Shown piece by piece: positions 1 through 47,187 of a stretch of DNA of 64,000 bases. Both the position numbers and the translations under genes were made by a program. The notes below the pieces were generated by a model. That model was not told the DNA's origin and did no database searches. It saw nothing but the letters and a program-made list of their open reading frames with translations. Position 1 is the stretch's first letter, and the number at the start of each line of letters is the position of its first letter. Origin of the DNA: Collinsella stercoris DSM 13279 (GTDB lineage: Bacteria; Actinomycetota; Coriobacteriia; Coriobacteriales; Coriobacteriaceae); NCBI RefSeq assembly GCF_020735465.1, contig NZ_CP085935.1:1488001-1552000 (forward strand), read 5' to 3'.

Positions 1-1001
<1,001 letters not shown>

Positions 1002-1121
1002 TCAATCCTCCAAATGAGAGATGTGCGATGCCGCTATGCGGATGAGTCGCTATGCCGCGGCGGCGAAAAAAGCGCGGACAGAGATGCGCGCTGAGCGCAT
1101 CCGAGCGCAGACGAAGTGCCG

Positions 1122-1409
1122 TTACTCGACGACGGCGTAGATGTCGTCGGCGCGCATGAGCAGGTAGTCCTCGCCGTCGACCTTGATCTCGTTGCCACCG
1201 AACTTGCCATAGATGACGATGTCGCCCTCGTGGACGTCGAGCGGCATGCGCTCGCCCTTGTCGTTCATCTTGCCAGCGCCCACGGCGATGACGGTGCCGC
1301 GCTGCGGCTTTTCCTGAGCGTTGCTGGCGATGTAGAGACCAGAGGCGGTCTTCTGCTCGGCGGCATCGGGCTTGATCAGAACGCGATCTGCAAGCGGCTT
1401 CAAAGACAT
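1122..1409 (-). CDS. groES: Co-chaperonin GroES (10 kDa)
   Basis: GroES is the heptameric lid of the GroEL chamber. The protein is 95 residues, the usual length, beginning MSLKPLADRVLIKP, with the mobile loop that contacts GroEL at about residues 16-30. The reading frame stays open upstream, but the ATG at 1407-1409 is chosen because it is preceded by a strong AAAGGAGGACAGC ribosome site and fits the family N-terminus. It is first in the groES-groEL pair, with a sigma-70-like promoter about 65 bp upstream. No complete CIRCE (HrcA) operator is visible, only an isolated half-site-like AGCACT near 1530. Confidence 0.97.
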   Translation of the reverse strand: MSLKPLADRVLIKPDAAEQKTASGLYIASNAQEKPQRGTVIAVGAGKMNDKGERMPLDVHEGDIVIYGKFGGNEIKVDGEDYLLMRADDIYAVVE

Positions 1410-1473
1410 GCTGTCCTCCTTTTGCTGGTGCCCGGCGCGCAGCCGGGCATCCCGCGGTTTGTGTACGCGATGA

Positions 1474-1502
1474 ATACTACCCAGCTGTGCGGACTTATAC
1501 AA
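1474..1502 (-). promoter_or_regulatory. Putative sigma-70 promoter of groES-groEL
   Basis: Read on the minus strand, a -35 TTGTAT (1497-1502) and a -10 TAGTAT (1474-1479) are separated by exactly 17 bp. This places the start of transcription about 60 bases before the groES ATG. The assignment rests on sequence match alone. Confidence 0.5.
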
Positions 1503-1555
1503 CGGAAAGGCAAAAAATCTTATGAATCAGCACTTAGATTTCTTTAGTCACCGCA

Positions 1556-2797
1556 TTACCAAGTAGAAAGCAGCCAATCAATGAGGTTCTCTATCCTCAC
1601 ACCCTGCTCCGTTGTTCCAAGACGCACTCTGTCGGCAGTAAGGACCACCTTGGGGAACGAATCGCGCACGAGCGCAAACGGCGCGAGCTCGCGATCGAAT
1701 GTTTCAGGCGCAACGAGCGTTTCCGTCACTTGGATATACATGCGGTCCCCGCGCTTCTCGGCTATGAAATCGATCTCCCCCTTGAGAAGTGAGCCGACCG
1801 TCACGCGATAGCCGCGACGAATGAGCTCGTTGTACACCACGCACTCGATTTGCGCACCAAAATCCTTGGGTGCGAACCCTGTGGCTAGGTTCCTCAGACC
1901 CGTATCCACGGGATAGAACTTGCGCTGGGGCCGCAGCACCTGCTTACCCGCGATGCCCGCCTGCTCGCATTCGCCCAAGATAAACGCGCTCTTGAGCGCC
2001 GCGAGGTAATTGTCGACTGTTTCGATCGTCGTCTTTCTACCGGAGCTCGCCAATGCGTTGACAACGCTCCTGGTGGAATACAGGCATCCGGACGTAGCGA
2101 ATACATAGCGAACGAGCTTGGACAGTAAATCCATGTCGCTTACTTTTGAGTGCATTGCGACATCGTTGAGGATGATGGTGTCACGGATCGATTCGAGAAA
2201 ACGCGTGAGCTGCTCTTCCGTGCGCTGCACCATGCCAAACTGCCCGGGCATGCCACCGTATCTGAGATACTCGGCAAACAGCGCATCCATACCGAGGGAC
2301 TCAGCACCGGCGGCTGCATGAAACTCAACATACTCCGAAAAAGAAAGTGGATGAACGGGGATCTCGACGTATCGCCCACCCAAAAGCGTAGACAGATCCG
2401 ACGAGAGCACGTGGGCGTTCGAGCCGGTGATATATGTATCGACGTTCGGATGCGTGTGGAGCCGACGAACGACCTTCTCCCAGCCCCGCACATCCTGGAT
2501 CTCATCTATGAAAACGTAAAAGGGTTTTGACGGATCGGCGGCGTCAAGCGCAGAGGTTATCTCGGATTCAAGCCAAGCGGCATCCGCATCGAGCGGGACC
2601 CCAAATCCGTCCATGCGACGGTAAAAGATGTTCTCCGGTGCTCCTAGCTCTTCCGAGACTTGTTCGAGCAACAACCTGAGCAGTGTCGACTTACCGCAAC
2701 GGCGAACACCCGTAATCACCTTAATGTCCTGCGAACCACGATACTCCGCAAGGAGCCGCTCATAGCGAGGACGATGAACTGTGTCCTTGAGACGCAT
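1556..2797 (-). CDS. AAA-family ATPase with C-terminal DUF4143 nuclease-like domain
   Basis: A 413-residue protein of the AAA_14/DUF4143 family, common in gut bacteria and archaea and without a firmly established role. The Walker A motif GVRRCGKST is at about 30-38 and the Walker B motif FYVFIDEIQD at about 93-102. The C-terminal part (LKGEIDFIAEKRGDRMYIQV) resembles a PD-(D/E)XK-like fold. The frame extends 11 codons upstream, but the ATG at 2795-2797 has a good GGGAGGTTTC ribosome site and MRLKDTVHRP fits the family start. It is monocistronic. Its upstream DNA holds a phased array of 18-bp palindromes (2812-2949) that probably controls it. Related proteins occur as mobile singletons, so transfer is possible. 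Confidence 0.85.
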   Translation of the reverse strand: MRLKDTVHRPRYERLLAEYRGSQDIKVITGVRRCGKSTLLRLLLEQVSEELGAPENIFYRRMDGFGVPLDADAAWLESEITSALDAADPSKPFYVFIDEIQDVRGWEKVVRRLHTHPNVDTYITGSNAHVLSSDLSTLLGGRYVEIPVHPLSFSEYVEFHAAAGAESLGMDALFAEYLRYGGMPGQFGMVQRTEEQLTRFLESIRDTIILNDVAMHSKVSDMDLLSKLVRYVFATSGCLYSTRSVVNALASSGRKTTIETVDNYLAALKSAFILGECEQAGIAGKQVLRPQRKFYPVDTGLRNLATGFAPKDFGAQIECVVYNELIRRGYRVTVGSLLKGEIDFIAEKRGDRMYIQVTETLVAPETFDRELAPFALVRDSFPKVVLTADRVRLGTTEQGVRIENLIDWLLSTW

Positions 2798-2811
2798 GAA
2801 ACCTCCCAAAA

Positions 2812-2949
2812 TGTCGAGCCAGCTCGACAATCCATGTTTGTATTAACAGATTGTCGGGTTGACTCGACATTTTATCCTTTAATTTTCAAATTATCGAGTT
2901 CACTCGACGTTTCATGACTTTTTTAATGGAATGTCGAGTGAACTGTACC
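2812..2949. promoter_or_regulatory. Array of 18-bp palindromes at exact 40-bp spacing
   Basis: Four sites begin at 2812, 2852, 2892 and 2932. The consensus is TGTCGAGT-NN-ACTCGACA. Site 1 (TGTCGAGC-CA-GCTCGACA) is a perfect palindrome. Sites 2 and 3 have one and two deviations. Site 4 keeps only the left half plus ACT. The 22-bp spacers are AT-rich and unrelated. The array occupies the leader and promoter region of the DUF4143 ATPase and looks like a set of operators on one DNA face (40 bp is close to four helical turns). Confidence 0.75.
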
Positions 2950-3062
2950 CAAGCGCAGGGCGCGCTCTGAGTTCATGTTCGGCAGCGGCAAGGCAGCTGC
3001 GAGAGACGCCGGCCGGCGGCTTACCGGCGTACCGAGAAGCAGAAACTCGGCTGACATGATCT

Positions 3063-3091
3063 AAATCTTGCAATATAGAACTGCAAGATTT
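3063..3091 (-). terminator. Inverted repeat downstream of the amidohydrolase gene
   Basis: A perfect 10-bp stem, AAATCTTGCA / TGCAAGATTT, with a 9-nt loop, 45 bp past the amidohydrolase stop. The position suits a terminator, but there is no clear T-run, so it could be another kind of stem-loop. Confidence 0.4.
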
Positions 3092-3136
3092 GGCTTCATG
3101 GTTGGAAGCTGCCTCCATCCATCAGCACAAAGACGC

Positions 3137-4789
3137 TTATACGCGCTCGAATACCCGCTTGCCTGCCAGGTAGGTGGCCTGGACCTTCGCACCCTGGATC
3201 TCGCTTGCGTCGCACGCGGTGACGTTGCGGTCGAGGACCACGAAGTCCGCCAGGTATCCGGGGGCAATGCGCCCCAGCTCGTGCTCGCGACCCACCGCGG
3301 CAGCACAGCCCGCGGTGTAGATGCGCAGCGCCTCCGCGGCGGAAATGCGCTCGCCGGGCAGCCAGCCGCCCGCCGGCTCAAGGGTAAACGGATCCTGGCG
3401 CGTAACCGCGCAGTACAGCACGTCCATACTCGTCACCGCCGTGATGGGCGAATCGGTGCCAAATGCCTGCGCAACGCCGCGCGCCGCGTAGGTTGCAAAC
3501 GGCCACATGATGCGGCTGCGCTCCTGCCCAAGATCGCGCTCGGGCCCACCCGGGTCGAGCGTGATGTGACCGGGCTGGGAACTTGCGAGCACGTCCAGCT
3601 CGCGCAGGCGGTCGATGTCGCCCGGCAGCAGGTTCTCCAGATGCTCCAAGGTGTTGCGACCTTGGCTGGGCGACCCAAACCGCTCGCGCGCCTCCTCGAA
3701 AATGTCGAGCGCCTCGTGGATGGCACGGTCGCCGATGGTGTGGATGCGCACGGAATGCCCGCGCTCGGCGGCCGCGAGCACCAGTTTTCGCATGCGATCG
3801 GCAGGCACGGTTGGGCGGCCGCAGTCGCCGGGCGTGCGCGCATTGGTGTACGGGTCGGTGAGCCACGCCGTGTGCTGGCTGCTCACCCCGTCGAAGAACT
3901 GCTTGAAACCCGGAGCGCGCAGCAGCGGGAACTCGCCCGTAGCGTAGCGCGCCTGCAGCGCTTCCAGGCGCGATTGGTCGTCGAGCAGCGTGGGGTACAT
4001 ATGCGCGCGCAACGTGAGCTTGCCGGAGCGCGCAAGGGCCTCGTACACATCGTCGCGAATGAAGTCGCAGCCCGGATGCGGCATGAGGGCCATATCGCAG
4101 ATGGATGTGATCCCCTGCTCGGCCATACACGTCATCTGCTCTTCGTAGGCCCGGGCTATGTCACTTTCCGTGAGCCATGCCAAGCAGCGCGGCAAAAGCT
4201 CCATGGCGGCCGCCTCACGGATAATGCCCGTGAGCTCGCCGTTCTCATCCTTGTCATAGCTGCCGCCCTGCGGGGGAACCGAATCACGTGTGACGCCCAG
4301 GGCCTCGAGCGCACGGGAGTTCATCCATAGCGTGTGCCCGTCGCCGGAGTACATCACGCATGGGCGATCGGGGAACGCCGCGTCGAGCGAGCGCTTGGTG
4401 GGTGGGACTGGCGGGTCCCAGCGGTAATCACGCCACCCCTGCGTAACCACCCAGGCGTGGCCCGGCAGGCCCTCGGCAAACGCACGCGTGCGCTTAACCA
4501 GCTCGGCCTCGCTGGTGCCCATGTGCATGAGCAAATAAGGGGACTCGCCAAGCGCCGTATGAAAGAAGTGTAGGTGGGCGTCGTGAAAGCCGGGGCAAAT
4601 GAACACATTGCCAAAGTCGTGAACCGGCGTGAACGCCGGGCAGGCGGCGCGAACGTCCTCGAATGCGCCCACATGCACCACGCGCTCCCCCGCCACGGCG
4701 AACGCCAACGGCCGAGCAGCGCACTCCCCTACTGCGCTCGTAAAGACGCGCGTAGACGTAACGATGTAATCGGGCCGTTCGAGTTCCAT
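3137..4789 (-). CDS. Amidohydrolase, YtcJ-like (amidohydrolase family 3)
   Basis: A 550-residue metal-dependent hydrolase of the amidohydrolase superfamily. The metal-binding HDAHLH is at 69-74, and the C-terminal part ends with the family signature segment GYLADFVVLDRN. YtcJ-type proteins hydrolyse C-N bonds, but the substrates of most are unknown, so no specific reaction is claimed. There is no signal peptide, so it is probably cytosolic. The ATG at 4787-4789 has GGGAG five to six bases upstream. The gene stands alone: tRNA-Thr lies upstream and a 10-bp inverted repeat follows the stop. Confidence 0.88.
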   Translation of the reverse strand: MELERPDYIVTSTRVFTSAVGECAARPLAFAVAGERVVHVGAFEDVRAACPAFTPVHDFGNVFICPGFHDAHLHFFHTALGESPYLLMHMGTSEAELVKRTRAFAEGLPGHAWVVTQGWRDYRWDPPVPPTKRSLDAAFPDRPCVMYSGDGHTLWMNSRALEALGVTRDSVPPQGGSYDKDENGELTGIIREAAAMELLPRCLAWLTESDIARAYEEQMTCMAEQGITSICDMALMPHPGCDFIRDDVYEALARSGKLTLRAHMYPTLLDDQSRLEALQARYATGEFPLLRAPGFKQFFDGVSSQHTAWLTDPYTNARTPGDCGRPTVPADRMRKLVLAAAERGHSVRIHTIGDRAIHEALDIFEEARERFGSPSQGRNTLEHLENLLPGDIDRLRELDVLASSQPGHITLDPGGPERDLGQERSRIMWPFATYAARGVAQAFGTDSPITAVTSMDVLYCAVTRQDPFTLEPAGGWLPGERISAAEALRIYTAGCAAAVGREHELGRIAPGYLADFVVLDRNVTACDASEIQGAKVQATYLAGKRVFERV

Positions 4790-4969
4790 GGTGGGCTCCC
4801 GCCTGTCTTTGCTTGCGCGCCAGGCGCAACAATTCGCCCGTCTCCTGCATTACGCGAGCATGTTCGATTCTACGACAGAAATCACCCCGAGATCGCACGG
4901 GCCCAGGCGCCCATCGGTCGATTGCCAGATGTAAACCGCGTAAGGCGGCGTATCCAAAATAACAGCGCA

Positions 4970-5008
4970 AAATACAAAACAGGCCAGACGCACGAGACAT
5001 CTGACCTG
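4970..5008 (-). terminator. Rho-independent terminator of tRNA-Thr
   Basis: Read on the minus strand, an 11-bp stem (CAGGTCAGATG / CGTCTGGCCTG, two G-T pairs) with a 7-nt loop is followed by TTTTGTATTTT. It begins about 10 bp after the tRNA 3' end. Confidence 0.8.
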
Positions 5009-5018
5009 CTAATTTCGA

Positions 5019-5094
5019 TGGAGCCAGCGACCGGGCTCGAACCGGTGACCCCCGCTTTACGAGAGCGGTGCTCTGCCAACTGAGCTACGCTGGC
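5019..5094 (-). tRNA. tRNA-Thr (anticodon CGT)
   Basis: A 76-nt cloverleaf on the minus strand. The acceptor stem is GCCAGCG / CGCTGGC with discriminator T and an encoded CCA end. The D arm contains AGCTCAGTTGGCAGAGC. The anticodon stem is CCGCT / AGCGG with loop CTCGTAA, giving anticodon CGT, which reads ACG (Thr). The T arm is CCGGTTCGAGCCCGG. It is followed by a strong terminator. Confidence 0.95.
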
Positions 5095-5195
5095 GGTTCC
5101 ATGGGCGATGCGCAGCCATGTGCGCACCGACGATTGACTAGTGTACGTGGAAACCCGCCCGTGCGCAAGTGCCCAACACGGCCCAGCGGAAAAAA

Positions 5196-6017
5196 TTATG
5201 CGGACTGAGCCAAACGACGGACTACACCCAGCGCGATGTTCTGCGTGGCCTCAGCTGCGGCGTTCGCGGCCTCAAGGACCTCGGCATGGTTGTTGTCGGC
5301 ACGACCGGCCTTGTTGGTCACGAGCGTGAGGCCCAGGACCTCCATACCCAGGGCGCGCGCCATGATGGTCTCGCACACCGTGGACATGCCCACGTAGTCC
5401 GCCTCAAAGCTCGCCAGCATGCGGATCTCGGCGGCCGTCTCGTACGTGGGGCCGAGCAGGCCAACATAGGTGCCCTCGGCAAGCTCGACGCCCACCTCGG
5501 CCGCGGCGTCGCGCGCGAGGTCGGACAGGTAGCTGGAATACGCGCCCGCCATGGGGACGAACGGCGCCTCGAGCTCCGCGGCCGCAGCGCCCTCGGCACT
5601 TGCCAAGGGATTACGGCCCGTCAGGTTGACCTGGTCGGTGATGAGGCCCACCGTGCCGGGCTCGACGTCGCGCACGGCGCCCGAGGCGCAGCTCAGCATG
5701 ATGCTGCGGCAGCCCAGCTTATGCGCATGGCGCACGAGCGACGTGACCTCAAGGGCGTCGTAGCCCTGATACATATGGATACGGCCGGGATACACCACCA
5801 CGGGCACGTCGTCGATCTCGCCCACGAGCACCTCGTACCGGTGGCCCGCAACGGGAATCGCCTCGGCCGGGAAGCCCTCGATGTCGCTATACGGAATGTG
5901 GCGCACCACGCGCACGCGCCCGGCGAGGGCACCCAGGCCGCTGCCCAGCACGATAGCGAGCGGATGCTCGACCGTGGGCTTGCAGTGCTCTGCCATCTTC
6001 TCAAACGTCGTTTCCAT
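5196..6017 (-). CDS. punA: Purine nucleoside phosphorylase (trimeric, PNP class I)
   Basis: Phosphorolysis of (deoxy)inosine and guanosine to free base and (deoxy)ribose-1-phosphate in purine salvage. The protein is 273 residues. The phosphate-binding GSGLGALA is at 25-32, GRIHMYQGYD at about 78-87, and the nucleoside-pocket segment GPTYETAAEIRM matches the trimeric GPSFETPAEIR family motif. The frame extends far upstream, but METTFEKM at 6017 has an AAAGGA ribosome site eight bases away and the normal family length. The gene is followed at once by TAATTTTTT with no clear hairpin. It appears monocistronic. The class is clear; exact substrate preference is inferred. Confidence 0.93.
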   Translation of the reverse strand: METTFEKMAEHCKPTVEHPLAIVLGSGLGALAGRVRVVRHIPYSDIEGFPAEAIPVAGHRYEVLVGEIDDVPVVVYPGRIHMYQGYDALEVTSLVRHAHKLGCRSIMLSCASGAVRDVEPGTVGLITDQVNLTGRNPLASAEGAAAAELEAPFVPMAGAYSSYLSDLARDAAAEVGVELAEGTYVGLLGPTYETAAEIRMLASFEADYVGMSTVCETIMARALGMEVLGLTLVTNKAGRADNNHAEVLEAANAAAEATQNIALGVVRRLAQSA

Positions 6018-46944: not shown

Positions 46945-47163
46945 GGGCGATCCTTTCGTGTTCGTCATGTTTGAATCGTTCTTTGTTGTTTGTTTTTGTG
47001 CCTTTATGATTCTCTATGTTTTCAACATTGTCAAGGTCGGAATTAGACAAGATGTCCTCGTCTGCTAGAGATACCTGCTTTTTTATCGATAGAACCCGTG
47101 AACGGTAGGTTTTTGGCAGTGAAAGGCGTGTTCATATTAAGGAACACTTGTCAGATGTATTGT

Positions 47164-47187
47164 TGTTCGTTTTAATTAAAACGAACA
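47164..47187. promoter_or_regulatory. Perfect 24-bp palindrome, likely DeoR operator
   Basis: TGTTCGTTTTAA and its exact complement TTAAAACGAACA, 27 bp before the DeoR ATG at 47214. A one-mismatch half-site TGTTTGTTTT lies at 46987-46996 near the PTS IIA start, so the regulator probably controls both itself and the PTS operon. Confidence 0.7.

Follow-up and report, generated by a model that had tools for sequence, protein, structure and literature searches.

PDC-S01 is a candidate defence system that ranks as the fourth most common across prokaryotes and consists of an ATPase in fusion with a PD-(D/E)XK member; most such candidates are described as awaiting validation (PMC12988326). In rumen genomes, it is the most frequent single locus (PMC13356809). 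The literature searched holds no mechanism for PDC-S01 and no operator array or DNA-recognition role for it, nor does it contain, with few subscription papers and preprints covered, any report of palindromes or autoregulation for DUF4143, COG1373 or PDC-S01. Autoregulated operators as such are already known. A close functional analogue is RptR, a separate 9-kDa repressor of a restriction-modification/DarTG2 island that uses one conserved 6-bp site (PMC12255303).

The locus described here lies in a 64-kb stretch of DNA, the whole of which is referred to as the window. Its minus-strand gene (1556..2797) encodes a protein of 413 aa that is assigned by Pfam and PADLOC profile matches to the AAA_14-DUF4143 ATPases and to PDC-S01. 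The Pfam matches have E-values of 2e-29 for AAA_14 and 2e-13 for DUF4143, and the PDC-S01 model PDLC04787 matches the ATPase full length (E 4.2e-129, residues 6-412 of 414). Both domains are present, and the Walker A and DE motifs are invariant or nearly so among 98 homologs. A search of solved structures with the ATPase sequence gave no homology, and a search of NCBIfam gave no meaningful match. The list of open reading frames also contains an alternative TTG start upstream, at 2830.

Between the ATG of this gene (2797) and the stop codon at 3137 that ends the next gene lies an array of palindromes with the 18-bp consensus TGTCGAGTNNACTCGACA, to which no strand is assigned. Palindrome 1 (2812-2829, TGTCGAGCCAGCTCGACA, two mismatches to the consensus) belongs to the 5' leader and immediately precedes the ribosome-binding site GGGAGG that is recognizable in the sequence (2802..2807, minus strand). 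Palindrome 2 (2852-2869, TGTCGGGTTGACTCGACA, one mismatch) abuts a predicted -10 box, TAAAAT (2869..2874, minus strand), and the arm of palindrome 3 (2892-2909, TATCGAGTTCACTCGACG, two mismatches) includes a predicted -35 box, TCGATA (2892..2897, minus strand), at 17 bp from the -10 box. Site 4 (2932-2949, TGTCGAGTGAACTGTACC, three mismatches) is degenerate and retains TGTCGAGT as its sole intact half-site. Here and throughout, promoter boxes are predictions from a crude consensus score. A first, sequence-only reading of this DNA had described four palindromes with starts 40 bp apart before a DUF4143 ATPase. The spacing is exact and the array does adjoin the gene, but a good palindrome is present at three of the four positions, the fourth being degenerate, and since the gene is encoded on the minus strand (ATG 2797, stop 1556), the sites fall within its promoter and 5' leader. 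The 22-bp spacers show no relation to one another, as had been stated, yet they contain further parts of the promoter besides the predicted -10 box. The proposed placement on one face of the helix holds only approximately, as 40 bp of B-DNA make about 3.8 turns and miss four full turns by some 70 degrees.

At up to three mismatches, the consensus is matched four times in the window, compared with 0.30 expected matches, and none of 100 shuffled windows contained four. The array is also the sole chain of at least three phased palindromes, at any period from 20 to 60 bp, within the 64 kb. Eight further matches at up to three mismatches are found in the 2.46-Mb genome, against six for a reversed-pattern control, and the sequence of the array is therefore close to private. 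Elsewhere in the window (47126-47186), two palindromes stand 38 bp apart, the second of them perfect (GTTCGTTTTAATTAAAACGAAC); the score of this pair equals that of the DUF4143 array, but its two palindromes are unlike each other. An Rfam search of window positions 1000-5200 returned only a tRNA at 5022.

Homologous loci were gathered from related genomes, from other phyla and by coordinates, and the removal of proteins more than 85% identical left 199. The 200 bp before each start codon were scored for two palindromes and their mutual similarity, with the 99% level of shuffled sequences as the cut-off. A phased palindrome pair exceeded this threshold in 78 of the 199 homologs, compared with 2/176 control regions located further upstream and 0/199 within the gene; raising the cut-off to the 99.9% shuffle level retained 43/199 homologs and none of the controls. 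Of the 78 significant homologs, 64 have a period of 39, 40 or 41 bp, and the periods of above-threshold shuffles are spread across the whole range. One to four phased sites are present per promoter. Inspection of the DNA upstream of related DUF4143 genes, which the sequence-only reading had recommended, thus upholds the phasing as a conserved property. According to the record labels, the high scorers belong to Coriobacteriia, Bacillota, Fusobacteriaceae, Rickettsiales, Gastranaerophilales, Fibrobacter-like bacteria, Chitinispirillales and Succinivibrio; many of these records are metagenome bins, so that the taxon labels may be wrong. The remaining 121/199 homologs fall below the strict pair score, some of them with other inverted-repeat layouts, and the 74%-identical homolog L012 has degenerate sites only. 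Given these homologs below the strict score and the other layouts of paralogs, the array rule is strong, not universal. Homologous loci without periodic palindromes had been named beforehand as evidence against the idea; the clade overall does carry the palindromes, although more than half of the single homologs stay below the strict score.

The sequence of the palindromes varies between homologs, examples being TTTCAGGTATACCTGAAA, TATCGGTTATAACCGATA, TTCTCAATATATTGAGAA and TTTACGGTTACAACCGTAAA. Half-sites agree at 7.5/9 positions at 70-79% protein identity and at about 4/9 at 30-49%. Paralogs within one genome also carry differing palindromes, and with a sequence of its own for each paralog, little cross-talk would be expected within a genome. 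Several further arrangements were observed. A long inverted-arm pair (ACTGGCAA..ACTGCCAAT / ATTGGCAGT..TTGCCAGT) surrounds the predicted -10 box in L077, L078 and L187 and represents another operator layout. In a sister clade (L027, L032-L035, L038, L040 and L053), two 41-bp imperfect palindromes (CTATTCCTCAAAACTGAAAAATTTTCGTTTTTGAGGAATAG) are placed around the predicted promoter, about 85 bp from each other, which is roughly two 40-bp periods. Members of the ATPase family are also found on contigs of a viral collection (L281-L352), some of them with phased palindromes (e.g. L299, L301 and L324). At more distant DUF4143 loci, direct repeats were detected in the promoter in 13/27 and 6/13 cases at p<=0.05, with inside-gene controls of 1/27 and 0/13; their period is mostly 22-23 or 32-33 bp, not 40, and several of the proteins keep an IEVK or VEVK motif. 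Tandem direct repeats precede the DUF4143 start codon in L003, L004, L005, L361, L364, L370 and L376, for instance GTGGTGGATCCGCGGTC in L364 and CTCGCTCATGAAATTGT in L004.

Mutual information was calculated between all protein columns and half-site positions for 67 even-centred loci whose period is 38-42 bp. Residue 259 and the sixth base from the centre form the top pair among about 3,300 column-position pairs (Z 9.1, next 5.4), and 0/20,000 permutations equalled their value. In this discovery set, glutamate occurs with C in 21/26 loci, aspartate with C in 7/7, asparagine with T in 12/12, lysine or arginine with G in 8/8 and histidine with G in 3/3. Pairings of E or D with C, of N with T and of K, R or H with G are those expected from side-chain contacts. 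The window ATPase matches this code, with E259 (codon 2021-2023, minus strand) and the C of TGTCGAGT. The pair still ranks first in a subset of 22 loci whose pairwise identities are all below 50%; the subset below 42% comprises eight loci, too few for covariation. As a control for kinship, homolog pairs were compared at equal protein identity. Base 6 is held in common by 24/891 pairs with different residue classes versus 473/616 pairs of the same class, and the corresponding values are 21/577 versus 192/265 at 30-39% identity, 3/282 versus 187/226 at 40-49% and 0/32 versus 94/125 at 50-59%. For held-out loci with a score of at least 14, viral contigs included, the code predicts base 6 correctly in 20/26 cases with even-centred and in 9/17 with odd-centred arrays, the latter being near 50%; the failures in the discovery set are E with A or T (5/26). 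Other covarying pairs (252 x 5, 243 x 8 and 306 x 10) are weaker and are not claimed as a code, with R243 fitting G at position 8 in 10/12.

In the AlphaFold2 model of the ATPase (pLDDT 94, pTM 0.93), residues 243, 252 and 259 are all contained in a winged helix-turn-helix (residues 222-296; 1910..2134, minus strand). Residue 259 is the second residue of its third helix, the recognition helix (residues 258-270; 1988..2026, minus strand). The suspicion that the ATPase itself is the binder is thus backed by the covariation, which indicates that its own helix-turn-helix sets the operator sequence, as would be expected of an autoregulatory winged-helix repressor. The PD-(D/E)XK-like core (residues 313-360; 1718..1861, minus strand) keeps E318, E341, D343 and Q356, with T358 at the position expected for the catalytic Lys. 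Among 244 aligned rows, position 358 is A, T, S or C in 237 and K in 2, leaving the catalytic site of the subfamily incomplete almost throughout. This loss in nearly all members suggests that the domain may bind DNA rather than cut it.

In 46/67 loci, the predicted -10 box takes one of two phases with respect to the 40-bp array; when palindromes and promoters were shuffled between loci, a mean of 19.9 and, in 5,000 shuffles, a maximum of 34 loci fell into these two phases, the bins having been picked after the pattern was visible. In the commonest layout, the -35 box is part of one palindrome's arm and the -10 box precedes the centre of the next palindrome by 11 bp. The window presents this layout with the palindromes at 2892 and 2852, together with a third palindrome beside the ribosome-binding site, and its -35/-10 geometry relative to the palindromes matches that of many homologs. 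In a second class, mostly Bacillota, the palindromes end just upstream of the -35 box and the -10 box follows one period further. The sites are thus positioned on the gene's own predicted promoter, where those of an autoregulatory winged-helix repressor would be placed.

We consider it probable that the array is a private operator that co-evolves with the ATPase, and that the ATPase binds there and represses its own promoter; across the clade, each ATPase very probably uses its own DNA-binding domain to read sites that are private to it. The private operator that had been suspected for the DUF4143 ATPase finds backing in the gene-specific palindromes, the conserved phasing and the residue-base covariation; the computed support further comprises the array itself, its phase-lock to the predicted promoter and the lack of a conserved neighbour. 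An ATPase dimer would occupy each 18-bp palindrome via its winged helix-turn-helix, where residue 259, near the beginning of the recognition helix, would read base six from the centre. Neighbouring dimers 40 bp apart would bracket the -35 and -10 boxes, and for this reason the gene should be repressed by its own product. Co-operative binding of dimers at this distance (3.8 turns) is plausible because of the constant spacing and the AAA+ architecture, and assembly might proceed through the AAA+ domain. Release from the operator could be linked to phage or plasmid entry. Repression is the likeliest output in view of the promoter geometry; in the second promoter class, with palindromes upstream of the -35 box, activation or a more complex mode is possible.

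A bolder and unlikely extension views the phased array as an assembly platform with a built-in sensor. Here, the Orc/NLR-like ATPase would polymerise in a nucleotide-dependent manner on its own promoter, and invading DNA or a phage factor would draw it away, which would derepress the gene and set off a defence response, with the catalytically dead nuclease domain acting as a DNA clamp. If true, the whole DUF4143 superfamily would represent self-addressed DNA sensors with class-specific periods of 22, 33 and 40 bp.

Chances are slim that the ATPase binds the array to activate the promoter, or that nucleotide state or occupancy switches it between activator and repressor. The last palindrome of many Bacillota homologs does end just upstream of the predicted -35 box, and MalT acts as an activator. 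The STAND-type ATPase IniR is an activator as well (PMC5760070). However, the window and most of its close relatives have sites over the -35 box, the -10 box and the leader, which is the geometry of a repressor, and even in the upstream class the -10 box falls on a site position. Control of the DUF4143 genes in trans, by an unrelated chromosomal regulator that binds the array, is very unlikely. Promoter palindromes are most often the targets of dedicated regulators, and 18-bp palindromes suit many dimeric regulators, but those described here differ across homologs and same-genome paralogs, are nonetheless predicted by a residue in the recognition helix of the ATPase and are essentially limited to the ATPase locus in the genome. 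In addition, no neighbour family is common to more than 2 of 26 close loci within 1.5 kb, which makes a linked regulator unlikely. A neighbouring regulator was rejected for this lack of a conserved neighbour, as was a toxin-antitoxin type pair, for which a conserved adjacent partner gene is absent from the same loci. Five homologs (L062, L064, L067, L072 and L375) directly follow an open reading frame ending in ..ATIEWE, presumably the end of guaA, and this position may be a recurrent target of insertion.

An iteron-like origin or assembly site of an Orc1/Cdc6-like ATPase, with a non-transcriptional role and the promoter overlap as a by-product, would suit iterated, phased sites and the fold of the protein. 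The nearest folds to the model are SSO1545-like ATPases (2qen, Z 18.8; 2fna, Z 18.2), and it also resembles NLR/CED-4 and Orc1/Cdc6 ATPases, including DNA-bound Orc1/Cdc6; the Orc1/Cdc6 structure 2qby_B reaches Z 15.1 but at an rmsd of 9.6; 2qen and 2fna are closer. The phase-lock to the -10 box, the location in the gene's own promoter and the occurrence as a chromosomal solo gene nevertheless render such a role highly improbable. A small CRISPR-like array built from 18-bp repeats and 22-bp spacers, as the sequence-only reading had offered for four copies in a regular repeat-spacer layout, can practically be discarded, since near-identical repeats are absent (1-3 mismatches per copy, with the fourth half degenerate), the copies are gene-specific and number one to four phased sites per promoter, and they are locked in a fixed phase to a promoter whose elements, the -10 box among them, are included in the spacers.

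If autorepression through a private array holds true, sequence-specific binding to its own promoter would be the first molecular activity of PDC-S01. The bound DNA sequence could be read from the genome and would be partly predictable from one residue, and tens of thousands of members would each gain a ready binding substrate and an assay for regulation. It would also explain how many paralogs are maintained per genome without cross-talk. As far as the searchable literature shows, it is new that the PDC-S01/DUF4143 ATPase is itself assigned the reading of DNA, that a 40-bp phase stays constant across phyla while the sequences are private, and that a single residue provides a recognition code.

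In comparison with PDC-S01 as described (PMC12988326), the window protein matches the profile full length and shares the fusion of an ATPase with a PD-(D/E)XK-like domain, but its subfamily is almost devoid of the nuclease Lys. RptR (PMC12255303) likewise represses itself by binding DNA, and its repeated palindromic sites overlie the -10 box of a defence locus, features that are predicted here; in our case, however, the ATPase itself is the proposed binder, and the sites are 18 bp long, 40 bp apart and gene-specific. Archaeal Orc1/Cdc6 proteins (2qby, 2v1u) combine an ATPase core with a winged helix contacting DNA, an architecture that the window ATPase may share, but they bind origins and are without a DUF4143/PD-(D/E)XK domain and a known private promoter array. 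The STAND-type regulators IniR and MalT (PMC5760070) share the SSO1545-like ATPase fold and the action of an ATPase on promoters, the latter being a prediction for the window protein. These regulators bind DNA with a separate C-terminal domain and act on other operons, whereas the proposed reader in the window ATPase is a winged helix beside the ATPase core, and its target would be its own gene.
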